From the IMG/VR virus record IMGVR_UViG_3300044742_000054, positions 1 to 42,706 of that record: a stretch of DNA of 42,706 nucleotides; one strand, 5' to 3'. The notes under the pieces were generated by a model. It saw nothing but the letters and a program-made list of their open reading frames with translations. It was not told the DNA's origin and made no database searches. The DNA comes from a virus. The position numbers and the translations under genes are program-made. Below, piece after piece: positions 1,161-33,567 of the stretch. Within the stretch, counting starts at the first letter, position 1; the number at the start of each line of letters is the position of its first letter.

Positions 1161-1763
1161 ATGCAACCCTCTAGACTCGTTATAGACCGTTTAATCGCAT
1201 CCGGCGCACGGATTAACCCCGTTCCGCAGGGTTTTATCTCCAATTTAGCCTCTACACCAGCTGCTCCCACGCTGCGCGGAATGCTCACCTCTCCCGCCGC
1301 CGTGCGCCAGTACATAGAAGCAGGCGCGGCGACGCTGACGATCGTAAGCGCTCGCACGCAGACCCGCTATACGTTCAAGTTCAAGCGTCCCGACGCAAAA
1401 CCCGGCGAACCCCTGCACGCCCGGCCCGTATGGGTCAGCCTGCTTTCCGGCCCCGATAACGAGTCCAATTACTCGTTTCTTGGAACGTGCTTCCCCGACG
1501 TGCCCAAGGGTGACCCGGTCCCCGTGGGGACGCCTTTCCGGTATCGCCACTCCCACAAGTCCAAGGTCACCGGCGACGCCCCCAGCGTCCGCGCCTTGAC
1601 GTGGTTCCTGACCGTGCTTTACGCCGCAGGCACGGTCCCGACGACCCTGCTCGCGCAGGCCGAGTGCTGGCATGAAGGTCGCTGCGGGCGGTGCGGGCGG
1701 GCGTTGACCGTGCCCGCGTCCATTGCCTCCGGTTTCGGTCCCGAGTGCATCCAGCACGTTTGA
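1161..1763 (+). CDS. DUF6011-type zinc-finger protein
   Basis: A 200-residue protein, first gene of the first rightward operon. Its last 35 residues carry Cys169, His171, Cys175, Cys178 and Cys196 in the pattern CGRCGRALTVPxSIxxGxGPEC. This is the signature of the DUF6011 zinc-binding domain found in many phage and actinobacterial proteins; its biochemical role is unknown. The N-terminal 160 residues are mixed alpha/beta with no motif I recognise. The start is fixed by a strong Shine-Dalgarno AGGAG at 1151-1155 in the context CTAGGAGCCTCA, a leader type that recurs before several genes of the phage. The domain call is good; the function is open. A role in nucleic-acid binding is only inference from the zinc finger. 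Confidence 0.8.
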   Translation: MQPSRLVIDRLIASGARINPVPQGFISNLASTPAAPTLRGMLTSPAAVRQYIEAGAATLTIVSARTQTRYTFKFKRPDAKPGEPLHARPVWVSLLSGPDNESNYSFLGTCFPDVPKGDPVPVGTPFRYRHSHKSKVTGDAPSVRALTWFLTVLYAAGTVPTTLLAQAECWHEGRCGRCGRALTVPASIASGFGPECIQHV

Positions 1764-1777
1764 ACGGAGCCTAGACC

Positions 1778-2161
1778 ATGCCGCCCCGTATCCACTCCAC
1801 TTGCACCCTGCCCGGCTGCGCCAACCCGCACTATGCGACCGGGCTATGCCGTGGTCACTACGTGTCCCGGCGCGCCGCCGCCGTGCGCGCCGCGTCGCAC
1901 CCTATCCACGCCCCCGCGCCCTGCGCGGTGCCGCCCGCTCCCGCGCCGTTCTACGCCACGGCAGCACAGGTGCAGGCGCGCGAGGCGCAGCGCGCCGCCG
2001 ACGTGCCCGCACCTCCCGCGCCGCCTAGCGTGCCGCCTGCGCCCGTCCTGACCCCTGCGCGGGCCACTCCTGACGTGCCCGCGCCGCCCGGCGCGCCTAT
2101 GCTTCCCATCATCCCGGCCCCGCCGGGCGTCCCGCTTCCCCCGCCGTTCCGCAAGTCCTAA
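1778..2161 (+). CDS. Small zinc-knuckle protein with Pro/Ala tail
   Basis: A 127-residue protein, 14 bases after the preceding gene. Residues 9-28 contain Cys9, Cys14, Cys24 and His27 in the pattern CxxxxCxNPHYATGLCRGHY, a zinc-binding motif often seen at the start of phage HNH-type and other DNA-binding proteins. After it, from about residue 35 on, the chain is nearly all Pro, Ala and Arg and is probably disordered. There is no HNH catalytic core, so nuclease activity is not claimed. The ribosome site is only moderate (GGAG about 14 bases upstream). GC content here is extreme, so several other frames are also open; the Cys/His motif is the main reason for choosing this one. Confidence 0.6.
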   Translation: MPPRIHSTCTLPGCANPHYATGLCRGHYVSRRAAAVRAASHPIHAPAPCAVPPAPAPFYATAAQVQAREAQRAADVPAPPAPPSVPPAPVLTPARATPDVPAPPGAPMLPIIPAPPGVPLPPPFRKS

Positions 2162-2195
2162 CCTCGCAGCATCCAACCTCTAGGAGCAAGTCACC

Positions 2196-3659
2196 ATGTC
2201 ATCCGCAACCATCCCGCAAGCGCTTTCCCTGTTCAACGCCCTGTCGCACGCTGGCAAGGTGCAGACCATCACCGCGCTCTATCACGGCGCGCCCGGTTTC
2301 GACGTGCCGGGCAAGTCCGGCGGCGAGTTGGACTACATCGTCGCCGCATGGGTCAACTCCGGCGCACTTCCCGCCGACGTGCTGGCGCTCGCCTGCGCGA
2401 CGACCGTCGCGGAGTCGCAAACGCTACTGGCGGTGCCCGCTGTGCCCGCTGTGCCCGCTGCGCCCGCTGCGCCCGCTGCGCCCGCTGCGCCCGTGGCGCA
2501 GGCGGCGATCGTTGCCGCGGCGGACGCCGTCGCGGAAAGGCTCGCCGCAGAGCGCGCCGCCGCGCAGCCCGTGCAGACTCCGCTCGCCGCCGCGATCGTG
2601 ACCCCGGTCACCCCGGCATTCGACGCCGCAGCCATGCCCCGCCAGCGCTCCCGCGTGCTGGCCCGCAGCCTGTTCGCGGACGTGCCTCAGGATGTGCGCG
2701 ACGCGATCCCGGCGGAGTTGACCGTCGAGTACTACGCGCACAACGACGCGCCGCCCGTGGACCCGGACTATGCGTTTACCGGGCACATCCTCGCCGATTG
2801 TCTCGGCGCGCTGGCCGCGTCGCCCGCCATTAATCTTTGGTTCAAGGGGTCGCGCGCCACGGGCAAAACGGAGATGGCGCGGCAACTCGCGGCGCGTTGC
2901 GGGCGTCCGTTTTTCCGGTTCAATTTCAACCGCTCGACGACGAGCGAAGATATCCTCGGCGGGCAGGCTATCGTCAACGGGGACACGCAGACCCTGCCCG
3001 GCCCGGTCGCGATCGGCGCGCAAACGGAGGGCGCGATCGTGCTGCTGGATGAGCCGACCTACACCGTCGCCGCTCACGTCGCCAGCTTGAATCCCATCCT
3101 AGAGCGCGACGGGGCGAAGGTCCGCATCCCGCGCACCGGGGAAGTACTGCACATTGCGCCGGGCGTGTGCTTCATTGCCGCCGACAACACGGGCGGGCAC
3201 GGGTCCACGTCGAACGAATACCACGGGCGCACGCAGTTTGGCGCGGACACGCTGGATCGTTTCGGGAAGTTCATTGCGTTCGATTACTTGCCCGCCGACG
3301 TGGAGCGGCGCGTGCTGCGTGCGCTTGTGCTGCGGGCCTGCGGCGTCAAGCCTAGCAATGACCTCGCGCGCAGCGTGTGCAAGCTGGTAGGCATTTGCCG
3401 CAGCAAGGCGGATTCGGGAGAGTTGGAGGGCGCGCCAAGCTTGCGCCGCGCGGTAGCGTGGACGGTATCGATCGTGCAGGGGTTCGCCGCAGCGGACTCC
3501 TATGTGTCATGCGTCGTTAACGCCGCGCCGGAGGATAGCCAAGAGGCGTTGCGGCAGATTTTCGCCGCATCGTGGGACCACGGCACGCAGCCTGCGGCCC
3601 TCGACGTGAACGCTAACCCGTTCGCGGAGGGCGACGACGCCAACGCGATCCCGTTTTGA
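2196..3659 (+). CDS. MoxR/CobS-like AAA+ ATPase
   Basis: A 487-residue AAA+ ATPase. The first 180 residues are low-complexity Ala/Pro, including a run encoded by a 9-base tandem repeat. The ATPase domain starts near residue 200: Walker A GSRATGKT at 218-225, Walker B with Asp285-Glu286 (VLLDEP) and a sensor segment around FIAADNTGG. The order and the GRTQFGADTLDRF stretch fit the MoxR/CbbQ/CobS group, which remodels or loads metal into partner proteins together with a von Willebrand factor A protein. That partner is the very next gene. The strong leader CTAGGAGC at 2180 fixes the start. No cobalamin-synthesis gene is present, so a cobaltochelatase role is unlikely. A chaperone-like role during infection is inferred. 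Confidence 0.85.
   Translation: MSSATIPQALSLFNALSHAGKVQTITALYHGAPGFDVPGKSGGELDYIVAAWVNSGALPADVLALACATTVAESQTLLAVPAVPAVPAAPAAPAAPAAPVAQAAIVAAADAVAERLAAERAAAQPVQTPLAAAIVTPVTPAFDAAAMPRQRSRVLARSLFADVPQDVRDAIPAELTVEYYAHNDAPPVDPDYAFTGHILADCLGALAASPAINLWFKGSRATGKTEMARQLAARCGRPFFRFNFNRSTTSEDILGGQAIVNGDTQTLPGPVAIGAQTEGAIVLLDEPTYTVAAHVASLNPILERDGAKVRIPRTGEVLHIAPGVCFIAADNTGGHGSTSNEYHGRTQFGADTLDRFGKFIAFDYLPADVERRVLRALVLRACGVKPSNDLARSVCKLVGICRSKADSGELEGAPSLRRAVAWTVSIVQGFAAADSYVSCVVNAAPEDSQEALRQIFAASWDHGTQPAALDVNANPFAEGDDANAIPF
2433..2495 (+). repeat. Tandem 9-bp repeat, seven copies
   Basis: Seven consecutive copies of GTGCCCGCT, later GCGCCCGCT, inside the AAA+ gene; they encode a Val/Ala-Pro-Ala run. 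The copies change from GTG to GCG partway and the last is imperfect. Slippage-prone low-complexity linker. Confidence 0.9.
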
Positions 3660-3694
3660 TCCTCACTCATCCATTCATCTAGGAGCAAACGAAC

Positions 3695-5908
3695 ATGCAA
3701 CCGAAACCGAAACGCAAATCCACCTTGCAGCCGAAAACGAACGCCGCCGCGCAGAACGCGCTCACCTCTGCCGCGATATTCGGCGTGCAATCGTCCCTGT
3801 TCACGGGGCGCGCCAAAGTAACCGCGCTAGGGCTGCAACGCGGCGTTAGCGAAATGATCCGCCGCGTGTATGCCTGCGTGCCGGGCGTCGCGCCGATGAA
3901 GCTCGACGCGCCCGCAATCAAGGTAACGTACATCGGGCAAGACGCCTGCGCCCGGTACGATTGGGGCCGGGACAAATCGGGCAAGCTCGCCGTCGCGGGG
4001 GTAATCAACTTGCCCGCGACCGGCGAGCCGGACGCCCTGATTCCGCGCAGCGTGGCGGACCAGTACACCGGCAAAGCGCTCCATGAGATGGGGCATTTCC
4101 TGTTTACTTCCCTGCCCGCGTTCGGCCATGCGATCCGCGACGCCGCGCGCCGCTACAACGTATCGGAGGATTTTGCGAAAAGCGTCATTAACGCGCTGGA
4201 GGACGTGGCGGAAGAGCGCGAGTTGATCCGCAGCGGGTACGCGCCGGGCGCGGGCGCGATGCTGCGGGCGCTCGTTGAGAAATGCACCTCCGACATTCCG
4301 CACGATGCGTACGGCACGATTAAGGCCTTTCCCGTGACTCTGGCATTCGGCCTGCGCCACTACACGCCCGCGACGCGCCCGCTCGTTGCCGCGCTCCCGC
4401 CCGTGCTGCGCGCGATTTATGACGACGCCGCGCGCGGCATGGCGGCGCTCCCCCAGCGCGCGATCGGCGATCCCGCTTCCATGCAACCCGTAATCGACGT
4501 GGCAAACGAAGTGCTGCGGGCGCTCGCCGCGCTGCGCGACGCGCAACCTCCGCAACCCCCGCAGCCGGATGAGCCGCAGGGGCCGGAGGGGCAACCGTGC
4601 GACGACGGCGAGCCGGGCAGGCCCGGCGACGGCGAGCCGGGCAGGCCCGGCGACGGCGAGCCGGGCGGCGACGGTGACGATGACCTCGACGGTGACGATG
4701 ACCTCGACGGTGACGATGACCTCGACACGGGCGACATGGGAGAGCAAGGCGACACGCGCAGGCCCGGCGACGCGCTCCCGCCTAACCCGACGCTCCCGCC
4801 GGACGCGACGCCGGACCCGCAGGAACCGCAGCCGGGCAACGACGACGACGACGACGCAGGCGAGCCGGGCGAAGAAAACACGCCCGCAAAGGATGAGGGG
4901 TCCGACGACCGCCCCGACGCGATCGATACGCGCGACCTCAACGGCACGCCGCTCGACGCCGACATGCAACCGGAGCAGGCGGGCGAGCCGGGCGACGGTG
5001 CCAGCGGGCTTGCCAATGATGCCGTGCGCGTCGTCAAGGCGAGCGAAGCGTCAGCATGGGATAAATCCGACGTGCAGGATAAGGTAAAGCAAGCGCTCAC
5101 CGCGAGCGCGCGCGTCGCGCACGGTCTACGCACCTTGCTTGACACCTCCGCACGCGACGCGCGCGAGGGCGGGCACCGTAACGGACGCCTCGACATGTCG
5201 GCGCTAGCGCGGATCAAAGTCGGCGCGGAAAATGTTTTCGAGCGCCGCGAATATCGCGACGGGTCCGACGCTGCGGTTTCGATCCTGATCGATCAATCGT
5301 CGTCAATGAACATGGACGCGCGCTATGTTGCGGCGCGCACGCTGGCCGGGACGCTTTCCAAAATCATCTCCGGTTGCGCGGGCGTGCGCTGTGAGATTCT
5401 CGGCTTTCATAGCGGGGGCGGCGCGGGCATGACCGATGCGACGCTAGATCAATTGATAGCCGACGTGGGGACCGATGAGGACGGCGACATGTGGCGCAGC
5501 CTCAAGGGGGATTGCTGCATTACCGTGTTCAAGGGGTTCGCGGAGTCGCACGCGACCGGCATGGCGCGCCTTGGTTCCTGCTATGGCACGGGCGGCACGC
5601 CGGATGCTGCGGCGATAACGCACGCCGCGCAGCGCTTGAACAAAGAAACGGCAGACCAGCATATTCTCATCGTCATTGCCGACGGCGAGGGTTCGCCGCG
5701 CGACGTGCTGGCGCGCATCGTGTCGCGCATCGAACGCGAGGGCACCATGCTTATCGCGATCGGCATTGAGCAAGACATGTGCGAGGCATTCACGCATCGT
5801 TGCAAAGTGGACGATGTCGCCAAGCTCAACGAGTCCGGCCTGCACGCTCTGCTCCGCGCGTTGTCGCAAAGCGCGCTGGCGCAGGATATCCGCGCCGGGA
5901 ACGATTAG
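3695..5908 (+). CDS. CobT-like VWA-domain protein
   Basis: A 737-residue protein built like cobaltochelatase subunit CobT. The N-terminal region has a metal-binding HEMGH motif (His130-His134) in a helical segment. A long acidic Asp/Glu/Pro/Gly linker at about 290-450 contains two sets of tandem repeats. The C-terminal von Willebrand A domain carries a complete metal-ion-dependent adhesion site: DQSSS at 533-537, Thr635 and Asp663. AAA+ ATPases of the MoxR/CobS group normally work with such VWA proteins, and the ATPase gene lies 35 bases upstream. The start follows CTAGGAGCAAACGAAC, shared exactly with the gene at 5979. No CobN-type large subunit exists here, so the substrate is unknown; host-protein remodelling or virion assembly are possibilities. 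Confidence 0.85.
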   Translation: MQPKPKRKSTLQPKTNAAAQNALTSAAIFGVQSSLFTGRAKVTALGLQRGVSEMIRRVYACVPGVAPMKLDAPAIKVTYIGQDACARYDWGRDKSGKLAVAGVINLPATGEPDALIPRSVADQYTGKALHEMGHFLFTSLPAFGHAIRDAARRYNVSEDFAKSVINALEDVAEERELIRSGYAPGAGAMLRALVEKCTSDIPHDAYGTIKAFPVTLAFGLRHYTPATRPLVAALPPVLRAIYDDAARGMAALPQRAIGDPASMQPVIDVANEVLRALAALRDAQPPQPPQPDEPQGPEGQPCDDGEPGRPGDGEPGRPGDGEPGGDGDDDLDGDDDLDGDDDLDTGDMGEQGDTRRPGDALPPNPTLPPDATPDPQEPQPGNDDDDDAGEPGEENTPAKDEGSDDRPDAIDTRDLNGTPLDADMQPEQAGEPGDGASGLANDAVRVVKASEASAWDKSDVQDKVKQALTASARVAHGLRTLLDTSARDAREGGHRNGRLDMSALARIKVGAENVFERREYRDGSDAAVSILIDQSSSMNMDARYVAARTLAGTLSKIISGCAGVRCEILGFHSGGGAGMTDATLDQLIADVGTDEDGDMWRSLKGDCCITVFKGFAESHATGMARLGSCYGTGGTPDAAAITHAAQRLNKETADQHILIVIADGEGSPRDVLARIVSRIEREGTMLIAIGIEQDMCEAFTHRCKVDDVAKLNESGLHALLRALSQSALAQDIRAGND
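4604..4668 (+). repeat. Tandem 24-bp repeat in the VWA gene linker
   Basis: Two complete 24-base units (4604-4627, 4628-4651) and a partial third encode DGEPGRPG repeats in the acidic linker of the VWA protein. Confidence 0.9.
4670..4723 (+). repeat. Tandem 18-bp repeat in the VWA gene linker
   Basis: Three exact copies of GACGGTGACGATGACCTC (4670-4687, 4688-4705, 4706-4723) encode DGDDDL repeats. Calcium-binding-like composition, but no defined calcium motif. Confidence 0.9.
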
Positions 5909-5978
5909 CAGCACGCAGCACGCCGCGCGGCGTCCGCTGCGCGGCGCATCCATGCACGCAACCTAGGAGCAAACGAAC

Positions 5979-6287
5979 ATGGGCATTTTCGGATGGAGTT
6001 ATCCCCCCGGCTGTTCCGGCCCACCGGACGATGAGGCACCTTGCGAGGTATGCGGCGAATGGGCGGATGAGTGCATCTGCCCCGAATGCCCGTGCTGCGG
6101 CGTGCAGGGCGACCCCGCCTGCTACGCGCCGCAGCCGCAGGGGCACGGGCTGCGGCAAAGCGTGGCGCAGGCGCACGGTGCCGCGCTGCGTGAAATGGAG
6201 TACCGGGAGCAGGCGGCGGCGGACGCGGCGGAATATGAGTACTGGCGCGCGAACCCGCACGCGCTCGACATTACGCGGGAGCAATGA
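5979..6287 (+). CDS. Small cysteine-rich protein
   Basis: A 102-residue protein whose first half is packed with cysteines (Cys12, 22, 25, 32, 34, 37, 39, 40, 48), in paired CxxC and CxC patterns that almost certainly bind zinc. The second half is a charged, probably helical segment. It begins SYPPGCSGPP, a start I associate with uncharacterised phage and bacterial small proteins, but no function is known to me. The leader CTAGGAGCAAACGAAC is identical over 19 bases, including the ATG, to that of the VWA gene, suggesting similar translation strength. Its stop overlaps the next start in ATGA, so the two are translationally coupled. Confidence 0.75.
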   Translation: MGIFGWSYPPGCSGPPDDEAPCEVCGEWADECICPECPCCGVQGDPACYAPQPQGHGLRQSVAQAHGAALREMEYREQAAADAAEYEYWRANPHALDITREQ

Positions 6288-6415
6288 TGGGTGAAATGAT
6301 TCTCGGTTTCGCGGCGCTCGCCGCCTGCGGGGTAATCGGCGCGGTGTTCGGCGTCGTCCCCATGCTCTTCGCTCTTATGTTCCTCGCGTTTTTCGCGTTG
6401 ACGGCAGGACGCTAG
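6284..6415 (+). CDS. 43-residue membrane protein
   Basis: A tiny gene starting in the ATGA overlap with the cysteine-rich gene (a second ATG at 6287 is equally possible). Almost the whole product is hydrophobic, with Gly/Ala/Phe/Leu stretches that could form one long or two short membrane helices, ending in AGR. It closes the first rightward operon, just ahead of a terminator hairpin at 6454. Function unknown; small phage membrane proteins include holins and superinfection-exclusion proteins, but nothing here decides between them. Confidence 0.6.
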   Translation: MMGEMILGFAALAACGVIGAVFGVVPMLFALMFLAFFALTAGR

Positions 6416-6453: not shown

Positions 6454-6479
6454 CGGCCCGCCTGTAAAAAGGCGGGCCG
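6454..6479 (+). terminator. Terminator-like hairpin after the first operon
   Basis: CGGCCCGCC (6454-6462) and GGCGGGCCG (6471-6479) form a perfect 9-bp GC stem around TGTAAAAA. The tail TTCTGTCTGG is only partly T-rich, so termination may be partial. It lies 38 bases after the last stop codon of the first operon. Confidence 0.6.
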
Positions 6480-6735: not shown

Positions 6736-6747
6736 GTGAGTACTCAC
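6736..6747. promoter_or_regulatory. GTGAG-type operator 1
   Basis: GTGAGTACTCAC, a perfect 12-bp palindrome, the same type as the two 12-mers inside the 274-310 dyad. Confidence 0.6.
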
Positions 6748-6769
6748 TAACCTGCATCCATGCCGCGAC

Positions 6770-6785
6770 GTGAGTGGGCACTCAC
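6770..6785. promoter_or_regulatory. GTGAG-type operator 2
   Basis: GTGAGTG-GG-CACTCAC: perfect 7-base arms around two bases, followed by TTCGC, as is the next copy. Confidence 0.6.
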
Positions 6786-6801
6786 TTCGCGCGCGGCGGC
6801 G

Positions 6802-6817
6802 GTGAGCGAGCGCTCAC
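6802..6817. promoter_or_regulatory. GTGAG-type operator 3
   Basis: GTGAGCG-AG-CGCTCAC: same 7-2-7 geometry as operator 2, also followed by TTCGC; the arm centres differ by compensating changes (T to C paired with A to G), so the symmetry is conserved rather than the exact sequence. Confidence 0.6.
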
Positions 6818-6957
6818 TTCGCCCGCCACCCCGGCCCTCCGGCCCCGCATTACAACCAGCGCATTAGGAATCCGAAACAACCGGGAAATCTAGATCGAAA
6901 AATATTTTCGGAAAAGCATAGACAAGGTAAAACGCCCGGCGCAGGATTCGATTCGTA

Positions 6958-6969
6958 GTAAGCGCTAAC
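6958..6969. promoter_or_regulatory. GTAAG-type operator 4
   Basis: GTAAGCGCTAAC, nearly identical to GTAAGCGCTCAC at 277-288, lies 32 bases before the ATG at 7002, where it could block the promoter or early transcript of the replication operon. Confidence 0.5.
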
Positions 6970-7636: not shown

Positions 7637-8466
7637 GCAACGACATTGCACCCGCAGGACTGACCACCGAGTGGCTCGACAAGCTCGCCGCCGCAGCGAA
7701 AGAGCAAGCCGCGACCGAGAAGCCGACCGGCAACTTTTTCTCCACCAAGGGCGGCTTGCTGTCGTGGAACCAGATGGCGCTGCCCGGCAACAAGATGGAA
7801 GTCATCGCGCTGGCATCCATGCACGAAAACGTGTGGTACGCCGGGGCGAAGTTCGACGCCGCGAACCCGGCCTCGCCGCTGTGCTATGCGTTCTCGTTGA
7901 GCGGGCAGGGCATGGCCCCGCACGACGAGTCCGAGCAGAAGCAGGCCGAGGCGTGCGCGGCGTGCAAGCACAGCAAGTGGGGCACGGGGGATGGCGGCAA
8001 GGGCACCGCCTGCCGCCCCACGCGGCGCATCGCGCTACTCCCGGCCAGCGCAGCCGCGTCGGTCGATGCTGTGGAGAAGGCGACCGTGGGGCTGTTGCGC
8101 GTGCCGATTACCAGCGTTGCCAACTGGACCGCCTACGTCAACGGGTTGGCGAATAAGCAGGTGCCGACGTTCGCCGTGATCTGCGAGGTGAGCATCATCG
8201 TCGATGCCCGGACGATGTTCAAGATTCACTTCACCCCCAAGCGCCCGATCGGGGACACCGCCGTGCTCAACGCGCTGATGTTGCGGAAGCCGCTTGAAGA
8301 GGTAGCCATGCAGTCGCCGTACGCCAAGCGCAACATCAACGCGGCACAGGTTGCGCCGCAACCGGCGGCGGCACCGATACAGCAGGCGTTCATCGCGCCC
8401 GCAACACCACAACCCGCAGTTCCCCAACCGGCCTTCGGCGCAGCACCGCCCCCGGCCAAATACTAG
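7633..8466 (+). CDS. Putative ssDNA-binding-like replication protein
   Basis: A 277-residue protein. Residues 30-235 form a folded-looking domain with the patterns FFSTKGGLLSWN and LPGNKMEVIALASMHENVWYAGAKFD, and four cysteines (Cys84, 108, 111, 127) that probably bind zinc. The C-terminal 35 residues are Pro/Ala/Gln-rich and disordered. I associate this layout with a conserved phage family sitting just upstream of polymerase genes and proposed to bind single-stranded DNA, with a tail like that of SSB, but this one lacks the acidic tip typical of bacterial SSB. The role is therefore inferred from context. The start lies in an ATGA overlap with the previous gene. Confidence 0.65.
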   Translation: MSNDIAPAGLTTEWLDKLAAAAKEQAATEKPTGNFFSTKGGLLSWNQMALPGNKMEVIALASMHENVWYAGAKFDAANPASPLCYAFSLSGQGMAPHDESEQKQAEACAACKHSKWGTGDGGKGTACRPTRRIALLPASAAASVDAVEKATVGLLRVPITSVANWTAYVNGLANKQVPTFAVICEVSIIVDARTMFKIHFTPKRPIGDTAVLNALMLRKPLEEVAMQSPYAKRNINAAQVAPQPAAAPIQQAFIAPATPQPAVPQPAFGAAPPPAKY

Positions 8467-31179: not shown

Positions 31180-32823
31180 CTAAACCGTTGCGCCAAGCTC
31201 GTACACGAAGTCCGTCGCCACCCACAGCGTTTCGATGTTTTGCGTCACCAGCATGTGCAGCGCGGCGGCGTAACCCATGCCCTGCACCGACTGCCAGCGC
31301 CGGAAGCGTTGATTCTCCATATTCCACCGTGCCTGATTCCACAGCGAGCGCGGATCGTCCCAGAGGTAATCGACGGACGGCGGCACGGGTGGTACCGGGG
31401 TCACCAGCGGCGTCCGCACGCTGAAGTCCACCTCAAGGTCGATCGCGCTCTCGGGGATGGAGCCGGATTGGAAGATCGGGCGGGCCAGCGTCCAGCGTTT
31501 GGTCTGCCCGAGCGCCTGAAAATAATTGTAGGCGGTCAGCACTTCGATTTCGATGCGCTCACCGATGCTGCCATTCCACGGCACGTTGTCGTAGTAACCC
31601 ACCCACGCCCGGCAGACGCGGCCATCGGCGGTGATGAATAGCGGGGTGTTCTCAAAAAGGCACACGCAACGGATATCCATGTTGGTGTACTGGCTCCACG
31701 CGCCGGTAATGGTATTCATCACCATCACCTGCACCGCCGTGTCGTCGGTGACGATGCGCGGCGAAGCTCTGACCGGCCCCACGTCGGCCTGCGCCGGGAC
31801 CACCAGCCACGCTTGGTTCTCGGTCTGGAACAGCAGCATCATCCAGCCCACCACGTCCTTGTAGCGGGACACCAGCGCGGAGACGGTCTGCTGTACCTTG
31901 TCGGTGAGGTTGTCCCGCGTGTTGACGCGCGTGCTTTGGAACGACTTCGACAGCGGCACCACGCCGTCCGTGGTGAGCAGCAGCAGATCGCCGCCGTAGG
32001 AGCAGCCGCAGCGCCGTCCCACGGGCGCGCCGAGGCGATACACGCCCTCCAGCCCCCATGCGTCGGCGTCGGCCACGTCGAGGCCGCTAAAGATCGCGAT
32101 CTCGCCCTTCGACGAGATGAACACCAGCTTGTCGCTCATGCCGCTGCCCGAGTCCACGGCCCATGTGTAGATCGCCATGAGGAAGCCGCCGAACTTGAAC
32201 AGGTGACCGACCGGGAACACCGCCGCGATGCCGCCCAGTTGCTCTGGGGGCAGATACCACGCCTGCATGGAGTCCTTCTCCACGAACCACAGGCGGCGCT
32301 GATGGATGGCGACATGAATGAAAGTCTTGGGATCGACGCCTTGGATGTTGAAGCCGGTCGGCGGCGTCTCCGCGAGTACCGTGGTGAACGCTACGCCGTC
32401 GTACACCAGCGGCGAGTCGAAACCGTTCACCGCGTACAGGTAATTGCCCCCGGTGTTGCCGAACATCGTCGTTTGCCAGTAGTCGCTCAACATCCCGGTG
32501 ATCGCGGGCGTGAAGGTGTCGCCCGGCGCGGCGAGGACGTAGACGTTGCCCCCGGTGAAGGCCACCGGCTTGTCCGCGCCGATCGGCGGCGAATGCACGG
32601 CGATCGTGGCGTTGACGCCGGGCGCAAGCCCGATCGCCATCTCCTTCCAGCCCTTCCGCATCGCCACCGCGTAAGGTAGCGGGAACCAGTTACGCAGGAT
32701 CAGCGCGTCGGTGATCGGCATCGCCGCCACGCTGTCGCGCGCGTTCAGCCCGCCGATCGGGGACGGGACGCTGGCCGTCTTGATGACGGCGCGGCGGGAG
32801 GTGTCGCGCCAAGGCTGCGGCAT
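31180..32823 (-). CDS. Tail hub / packaged-DNA stabilisation protein
   Basis: A 547-residue beta-rich protein. The N-terminus VPSPIGGLNARDSVAAMPITDALILRNWFP matches the start of short-tail proteins in the P22 gp10/T7 gp12 functional class. It is followed by repeated beta-propeller-like blades (FTGGNVYVLAAPG, GNYLYAVNGFDSPLVYDG, TDGVVPLSKSFQS, MNTITGAWSQYTNMDIRCVC). Such proteins form the tail tube below the portal and head completion proteins and hold the packaged DNA in. It lies directly next to the probable adaptor protein. No peptidoglycan hydrolase motif was seen. Confidence 0.75.
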   Translation of the reverse strand: MPQPWRDTSRRAVIKTASVPSPIGGLNARDSVAAMPITDALILRNWFPLPYAVAMRKGWKEMAIGLAPGVNATIAVHSPPIGADKPVAFTGGNVYVLAAPGDTFTPAITGMLSDYWQTTMFGNTGGNYLYAVNGFDSPLVYDGVAFTTVLAETPPTGFNIQGVDPKTFIHVAIHQRRLWFVEKDSMQAWYLPPEQLGGIAAVFPVGHLFKFGGFLMAIYTWAVDSGSGMSDKLVFISSKGEIAIFSGLDVADADAWGLEGVYRLGAPVGRRCGCSYGGDLLLLTTDGVVPLSKSFQSTRVNTRDNLTDKVQQTVSALVSRYKDVVGWMMLLFQTENQAWLVVPAQADVGPVRASPRIVTDDTAVQVMVMNTITGAWSQYTNMDIRCVCLFENTPLFITADGRVCRAWVGYYDNVPWNGSIGERIEIEVLTAYNYFQALGQTKRWTLARPIFQSGSIPESAIDLEVDFSVRTPLVTPVPPVPPSVDYLWDDPRSLWNQARWNMENQRFRRWQSVQGMGYAAALHMLVTQNIETLWVATDFVYELGATV

Positions 32824-33567
32824 CTACGGTCCCGTGGGTCCGGTGTTCCAGTTGCCGTCGCTGATGTTCCACGGCCCGATGTAGATCGGGGATACACGCG
32901 GAGAAAGAGATAGCCGTGGAGCGCCTTTATTGCGCGACATGCTTGTATTGAACGACGCGTCGTAGTCCTTGGTGAGCGCGCTGGTATCGAAGCCCTTGAT
33001 CTCCCACAGCTTGAGCTTGATGCCGTTGACCATCAGCCGGTTCTGGAACACCGCACGGTCGTTGTCCACCGTCGCCTCGTTCTTGGTGTTGCCGTCCACG
33101 TCGATCACCCAGCCCGAAGCGTAGTACTCGAAATTGAGGTCGTAGGGCGTGAACGCCCCGCCGATCGTAGTCGGCGTCGGGAAGATTTCGATGGTGTCGT
33201 TAATGTAGCGATAGCGCAGGCGCGGGCCGAGCGCGACGATGCCGCTCTTCAGCGTCTGCCATTGCTGTTCCGTGGCCTGCCCGATCAGCGACCAATGGTT
33301 GGTGCGGTCCCATTCGGTCTGGTCGATCGCCCCTGCCCAATCGGCGGGCAGCGGGTACGCCGCGCGACCGACCTCGGTGAGGAAGCCGAAGCTCTTCACC
33401 AACTCCTTCCACATCCACTTCTCGTATAACTCCTGCCCGAGGGCGTTCCAAAGGCCGAAGATTTGCTGCCCCGTGGTGTCGTCGGCTGACGCTGCCGACG
33501 TTGGCACCGGCAGTCCTAGTTCACGCAGCGCATCCTGACATTGCTTCAACACCGATGGTGTCGGCAT
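32824..33567 (-). CDS. Head-tail adaptor protein
   Basis: A 247-residue protein. Patterns such as LQCQDALRELGL-like N-terminal helix, LWNALGQELYEKWMW, FLTEVGRAAYPLPADW, RLRYRYINDTIEIFPTP and FEYYASGWVID match short-tail adaptor proteins of podoviruses (functional counterpart of P22 gp4/T7 gp11). These join the portal to the tail hub. The gene stops exactly where the hub gene region begins, with no gap. A ribosome site AAAGG lies 7 bases before the ATG. Confidence 0.75.
   Translation of the reverse strand: MPTPSVLKQCQDALRELGLPVPTSAASADDTTGQQIFGLWNALGQELYEKWMWKELVKSFGFLTEVGRAAYPLPADWAGAIDQTEWDRTNHWSLIGQATEQQWQTLKSGIVALGPRLRYRYINDTIEIFPTPTTIGGAFTPYDLNFEYYASGWVIDVDGNTKNEATVDNDRAVFQNRLMVNGIKLKLWEIKGFDTSALTKDYDASFNTSMSRNKGAPRLSLSPRVSPIYIGPWNISDGNWNTGPTGP

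Follow-up and report, generated by a model that had tools for sequence, protein, structure and literature searches.

Introduction

CobS and CobT have been reported as core gene products of T4-like cyanophages, and their genes are often tallied as vitamin-B12 auxiliary metabolic genes. Clusters of cobS and cobT (cobST) occur across tailed viruses, and CobN of the host has been proposed as the partner of the encoded proteins (Liu et al., 2021; PMC8651126). In jumbo phages, a MoxR ATPase accompanies a vWA protein fused to a metallopeptidase, for which a role in virion assembly was proposed (Iyer et al., 2021; PMC7824862). The latter report drew this proposal from an analogy with the Acidianus two-tailed virus and cites a chaperone role of MoxR-VWA proteins in the tail of an archaeal virus. 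Here, we analyze a gene pair of this type, encoding a CobS-like AAA+ ATPase and a CobT-like VWA protein, in the virus record IMGVR_UViG_3300044742_000054. The entire stretch of DNA that was analyzed (42,706 bp) is designated the window. The VWA protein harbors the motif HEMGH, which is a zinc-metallopeptidase signature, as judged from its sequence, and has no counterpart in cellular CobT.

The ATPase and VWA genes

The two genes and the motifs of their products are located as follows.

2196..3659, plus strand: MoxR/CobS-like AAA+ ATPase, 487 residues (AAA_5, phrog_249, weak TIGR01650)
2847..2870, plus strand: Walker A, GSRATGKT, residues 218-225
3042..3053, plus strand: Walker B, LLDE, residues 283-286
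3695..5908, plus strand: zincin-VWA protein ('CobT-like'), 737 residues
3812..4309, plus strand: predicted zincin (metallopeptidase-like) core, residues 40-205
4082..4096, plus strand: HEMGH, residues 130-134, predicted HExxH zinc-binding and catalytic motif
4190..4219, plus strand: NALEDVAEER, residues 166-175, with E169 as candidate third zinc ligand
4550..5014, plus strand: low-complexity acidic and proline-containing linker (32% D+E)
5267..5905, plus strand: VWA domain (PF00092, PF11775) with its metal ion-dependent adhesion site (MIDAS; D533, S535, S537, GGTP, D663)

The ATPase matched the Pfam family AAA_5 (46.2 bits for a cut-off of 22) and the PHROG family phrog_249 (E = 3e-38). Residues G218, G223, and K224 of Walker A and D285 and E286 of Walker B were invariant in alignment A1. 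N331 in the sensor-1 region, the arginine-finger-like R355-F356, and the sensor-2-like R417 were also read from the sequence. The VWA protein matched the Pfam families VWA (PF00092, 26.6 bits, cut-off 23.8) and CobT_C (PF11775, 22.2 bits, cut-off 21), as well as phrog_1576 (E = 4e-24) and phrog_17276. Its MIDAS was complete, comprising DQSSS (533-537), GTGGTPD, and IADGE. The locus thus combines the elements that define a MoxR AAA+/VWA pair, namely an ATPase with Walker A, Walker B, and arginine-finger residues adjoining a VWA protein with a MIDAS. A sequence-only reading of the window had stated that the key residues of the ATPase, the full MIDAS, and HEMGH are kept and that both proteins are probably active. 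All of these residues were found intact at their positions, and both proteins look active on the basis of the AAA+ and MIDAS residues. The significance of HEMGH had been missed in that reading.

Conservation of the putative zincin site

The metal site was compared in 51 viral VWA proteins displaying 15-27% identity with the window protein, 50 of which cover the HExxH site. H130, E131, and H134 were kept in all 50, and E169, D170, and E174 of the NALEDVAEER motif were retained in all 51 proteins. The resulting pattern, HExxH followed by NxxED...E, has the two elements expected of a zincin, an HExxH motif on a helix and a conserved acidic ligand downstream. HExxH was also present in the proteins of ICP2, SSU5, and Gordonia phage Woes, and in plasmid copies, as HEAAH (IncA) and HESAH (Pseudomonas mandelii). 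In contrast, none of five cellular CobTs, taken beside CobS genes, contained HExxH, and only the glutamate of the second helix was retained. The N-terminal domains of the viral proteins and of cellular CobT are homologous, since 28 of the 51 viral domains matched Pfam CobT_N (PF06213). The zincin site thus appears, from these alignments, to set cellular CobT clearly apart from its viral and plasmid counterparts, a distinction that is new here. The papers on viral cobST read the pair as a vitamin-B12 chelatase and called the peptidase annotation of cyanophage cobT mistaken, whereas the present comparison of metal sites favors the peptidase.

Predicted structure of the N-terminal domain

Two models were considered, one of residues 1-300 (mean predicted local distance difference test score, pLDDT, of 75.9) and one of residues 40-205 (AlphaFold2, mean pLDDT of 82.4). 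In both, the two motif helices are placed after a small sheet; in the longer model, the helices span residues 118-137 and 158-180 and bear HEMGH and NALED, respectively. Candidates from Foldseek were realigned in a second fold comparison that provides Z-scores. The top 22 rows were all zincins by title or family, led by SPRTN (6mdx; Z = 6.3, 3.8 Å over 102 residues) and including IrrE (3dte; Z = 5.4, 3.3 Å over 88 residues), ArdC (6sna; Z = 4.7, 3.7 Å over 91 residues), BlaR1, DUF885, BepA, selecase, PprI, and ZMPSTE24. Among viral structure models, the best named matches were phage 'CobT' proteins. The models suggest a zincin fold for the core, and the conservation of the motifs is the stronger evidence for zincin identity. 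SPRTN, IrrE/PprI, ArdC, and selecase, which are single-domain or DNA-linked zincins, share HExxH and a similar predicted core fold with the window protein. They differ from it by the absence of an AAA+/VWA gene-pair partner, and the similarity is weak (Z of 4.7-6.3) and does not imply homology.

Distribution of the pair

By tblastn, a related ATPase was identified in 550 phage records, most of them from cyanophages, and a related VWA protein in dozens. When viral contigs were scanned with either window protein alone, no relatives were detected, both proteins probably being too divergent for short peptide patterns, and profile alignments offered no usable stretch. The search for viral relatives and their neighbors that the sequence-only reading had recommended thus revealed a widespread, known pair, present in phages and plasmids. 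The viral cobST clusters of CRP-810, cyanophages, and Mae-Yong1326-1 (Liu et al., 2021; PMC8651126) are homologous and have the same gene adjacency. The jumbo-phage pair, compared by its published description only, is built in the same way from two genes and also has a metallopeptidase fused N-terminally to vWA (PMC7824862). The IncA, IncT, and Pseudomonas plasmids likewise encode a MoxR ATPase and a VWA protein, but the two genes are split by other genes, with DUF3150 and RecT/exonuclease genes nearby. DUF3150 lies between the ATPase and VWA genes on all three plasmids (IncA, IncT, and P. mandelii). It was considered as a hidden partner in phages and rejected, as it was found in none of the eight phages searched. 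On plasmid Rts1, an insertion sequence directly precedes a shortened VWA gene.

In the ATPase tree, the window and its nearest pair-bearing relative, G016, formed one clade separate from the other groups, the exact placement of which is unsure owing to long branches. The position of Archie beside this clade is distrusted because its branch is very long. By sequence, the window pair is a divergent new member of an already known type of mobile-element pair, which carries the annotation 'CobS/CobT' or, in the case of jumbo phages, 'MoxR plus metallopeptidase-vWA'.

Comparison with the cobaltochelatase

The window is delimited by a direct terminal repeat of 143 bp (99.3% identical copies) and looks like a complete viral genome; the absence of a gene from it therefore carries meaning. 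CobN (PF02514) had no match in the record, as the sequence-only reading had stated. That reading had treated the missing large subunit as notable. The subunit is indeed missing, but this is not distinctive, since PF02514 was also absent from all of 48 further records, three of them plasmids, in which the pair or its ATPase occurs. The proposal that phage CobS and CobT cooperate with host CobN to raise cobalamin for nucleotide synthesis (PMC8651126) can draw on real homology to CobS and CobT across both proteins and on the ATPase tree, in which the cellular CobS clade adjoins the CRP-810 phage clade. The likeness to the aerobic cobaltochelatase CobNST extends to the AAA+ motor, the VWA partner, and the homologous N-terminal domain. 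However, the ATPase scored only 53.8 bits against the CobS equivalog TIGR01650 (cut-off of 558.55), the CobT equivalog TIGR01651 had no match in the window, and the zincin site is intact in the window protein and missing from cellular CobT. In addition, the pair occurs in Escherichia phages Cyrano and PhiR41_1 and on an IncA plasmid in E. coli although E. coli, one of 14 control genomes, had no match to PF02514; the window's own host is outside this comparison. We therefore regard a chelatase function as very improbable. The sequence-only reading had favored a remodeling machine over a chelatase, and this preference fits better with the lack of CobN and the presence of the zincin site. Another control genome, that of Caulobacter vibrioides, matched the CobT equivalog with no CobN-family match, so that CobST may function in the absence of CobN in cells as well.

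Comparison with the virion genes

The minus strand of the window carries the portal, major capsid, terminase, and tail module, and the plus strand carries DNA polymerase, helicase, and primase-helicase genes. The pair and its flanking small genes (the cassette, 1161-6415) are located on the plus strand of the window. In both the window and G016, the cassette opens the early gene block, 5' of the DNA polymerase gene. Relatives were collected by their major capsid protein, and 36 records were searched in their entirety for the pair. Only G016, whose capsid protein is 62% identical to that of the window, harbored the pair, at the same location, before a homologue of ORF 7002. Three closer relatives (G002, G003, and G008) have structural genes like those of the window (up to 85% identity; 84-85% for the major capsid protein), and G002 and G008 also have its replication genes. 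Block 1161-6415 had no match in any of the three. Both G002 and G016 possess exact terminal repeats of 127 bp and look complete. The cassette therefore does not track the virion genes, and its presence or absence is independent of them. A Chloroflexota metagenome-assembled contig carrying a relative of the capsid protein was not accepted as a pointer to the host.

The sequence-only reading had listed virion maturation among the possible roles, and the jumbo-phage proposal (PMC7824862) would have the chaperone and peptidase process structural proteins. A peptidase could indeed act on virion proteins, and the role reported in the tail of the archaeal virus sets a precedent. Nevertheless, the pair is dispensed with by relatives sharing the same structural genes, one of them complete, and BUCT555 and ppBjS10J-1, which have portal and capsid genes in common with the window, also show no homologue. 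Conjugative plasmids, which make no virion, bear it beside RecT/exonuclease genes, and in the window it lies among early genes on the strand opposite the structural block. The window pair, in contrast to the jumbo-phage pair, resides in a short genome of 42.7 kb, and its relatives lend no support to a virion role. These observations make a function in virion assembly or maturation improbable.

Gene neighborhood and organization of the cassette

In other elements, the pair often lies close to genes of DNA metabolism. It is beside or near genes for DNA polymerase III alpha, ligase, or primase in Rhizobium phage RHEph10, Pseudomonas phage hairong, SSU5, and Cyrano, upstream of the sliding clamp and clamp loader in cyanophage S-RIM2, and upstream of primase, helicase, and polymerase in ICP2. 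The plasmid copies are found with RecT and exonuclease, and additionally with SSB in Rts1.

In the window, the other features of the cassette are the following.

1161..1763, plus strand: DUF6011 zinc-ribbon-type protein, first open reading frame (ORF) of the cassette (PF19474, E = 7.7e-12)
1778..2161, plus strand: small Cys/His protein with weak HNH-type similarity (phrog_5351, E = 7.8e-5)
2180..2187, plus strand: ribosome-site motif CTAGGAGC, with others starting at 1149, 3679, and 5963
5979..6287, plus strand: small Cys-rich protein with no Pfam or PHROG family match
6284..6415, plus strand: hydrophobic ORF of 43 residues, known from sequence only, overlapping the end of the preceding gene
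6454..6479, plus strand: terminator-like hairpin 3' of the cassette, 10-bp stem with 9 G-C pairs

The small neighbors with zinc motifs described in the sequence-only reading are thus present, at 1161-1763, 1778-2161, and 5979-6287. DUF6011 was rejected as a constant partner, since a search for its motif in the vicinity of other pairs was negative, although a related PHROG family is located upstream of the Gordonia pair. ORF 6284-6415 possibly encodes a small membrane protein. The same reading had assigned unusually strong ribosome sites to an operon of its own. CTAGGAGC does precede four cassette genes, and the genome contains seven copies for 0.59 expected. The motif is also found at 8463, 13109, and 16878 (minus strand) and is therefore not restricted to the cassette operon. 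The cassette is followed by a 586-nucleotide gap containing the hairpin; such stems are no commoner in the genome than in shuffled sequences. A separate sigma-70 promoter for the cassette was looked for and not found. Operator-like palindromes, GTNAGTNNNNACTNAC and AGTAAGCGCTAAC, occur in the non-coding DNA flanking the cassette (273-311, 6736-6817, and 6957-6969). The GTNAGTNNNNACTNAC pattern has 15 matches in the genome for 3.6 expected, 12 of which are in these flanking stretches. Elsewhere in the window, a tRNA-Leu (anticodon AAG) was predicted at 32780-32865 (plus strand), spanning the junction of two minus-strand structural genes, and this prediction is possibly false.

Discussion

The motifs, their conservation, and the gene content are established directly. 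From these, we consider it probable that the pair is an accessory ATP-driven machine of the MoxR-VWA type, combining VWA and zincin domains, that remodels or cleaves proteins early in infection. The ATPase would assemble into a ring, as do MoxR proteins, and the VWA domain would capture a peptide of the target protein via its MIDAS. Powered by ATP, the ring would then exert a pull on the target or change its shape. The zincin domain would cleave the target or, in lineages with a broken site, only hold it. The target would probably be encountered at an early stage of infection, in the vicinity of DNA replication or recombination. Candidate targets include host proteins on phage DNA, restriction or other defense proteins, and DNA-crosslinked proteins. 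The remodeling of a host protein and the anti-defense role that the sequence-only reading had raised may thus both apply. PADLOC analysis of the window detected nothing beyond a weak ATPase match.

Several observations weigh against this interpretation. Foldseek found no significant match to the models in the PDB, although a family missing from its results is not thereby argued against, and every fold Z-score was below 8, which is too low to prove homology. Pseudomonas phage hairong has lost HExxH (SEIAK; VWA protein L004:6720-8795), and the motif is altered in G016 (HEVCGH; L240:7243-9297), both of which keep the VWA domain and the ATPase; proteolysis is therefore not essential in every member. 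The apparent synteny with replication genes has to be weighed against a high background, about one third of the window genome being within 4 kb of such genes. The neighbor of the CRP-810 pair is mainly a repair gene, encoding a pyrimidine-dimer glycosylase, and the neighbors in Gordonia phage Woes have no known function and are uninformative.

The broken site of hairong and the altered site of G016 could also be read as those of a pure chaperone, whose zincin-like domain would be a peptide-binding relic in a machine that only remodels host or phage complexes. NorQ-NorD and RavA-ViaA, which are remodeling pairs, provide a model for this alternative, and the site is broken in the CobT lineage, too. 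However, all other members, although very diverse, retain the metal ligands, and a relic would not require them. We consider a pure chaperone rather unlikely.

The favored remodeler or protease may be specified further, although we advance the following version only tentatively and judge it rather unlikely as a whole. Mobile elements would share a motor-driven zinc protease acting on DNA-bound proteins, which would clear crosslinked or blocking proteins or cut restriction or defense proteins, and the related cellular CobT would have given up the protease site upon adopting metal insertion. SPRTN with its unfoldase and the antirestriction zincin ArdC offer possible parallels for such an activity.

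Two results, the zincin site as a divide from cellular CobT and the uneven occurrence of the pair among near relatives, speak against both published proposals, chelatase and virion assembly. The site also provides a simple, single-residue test of the CobS/CobT label in viruses. If the pair does encode a motor-driven zinc protease, many of the 'cobalamin auxiliary metabolic genes' of viral surveys would be misnamed.

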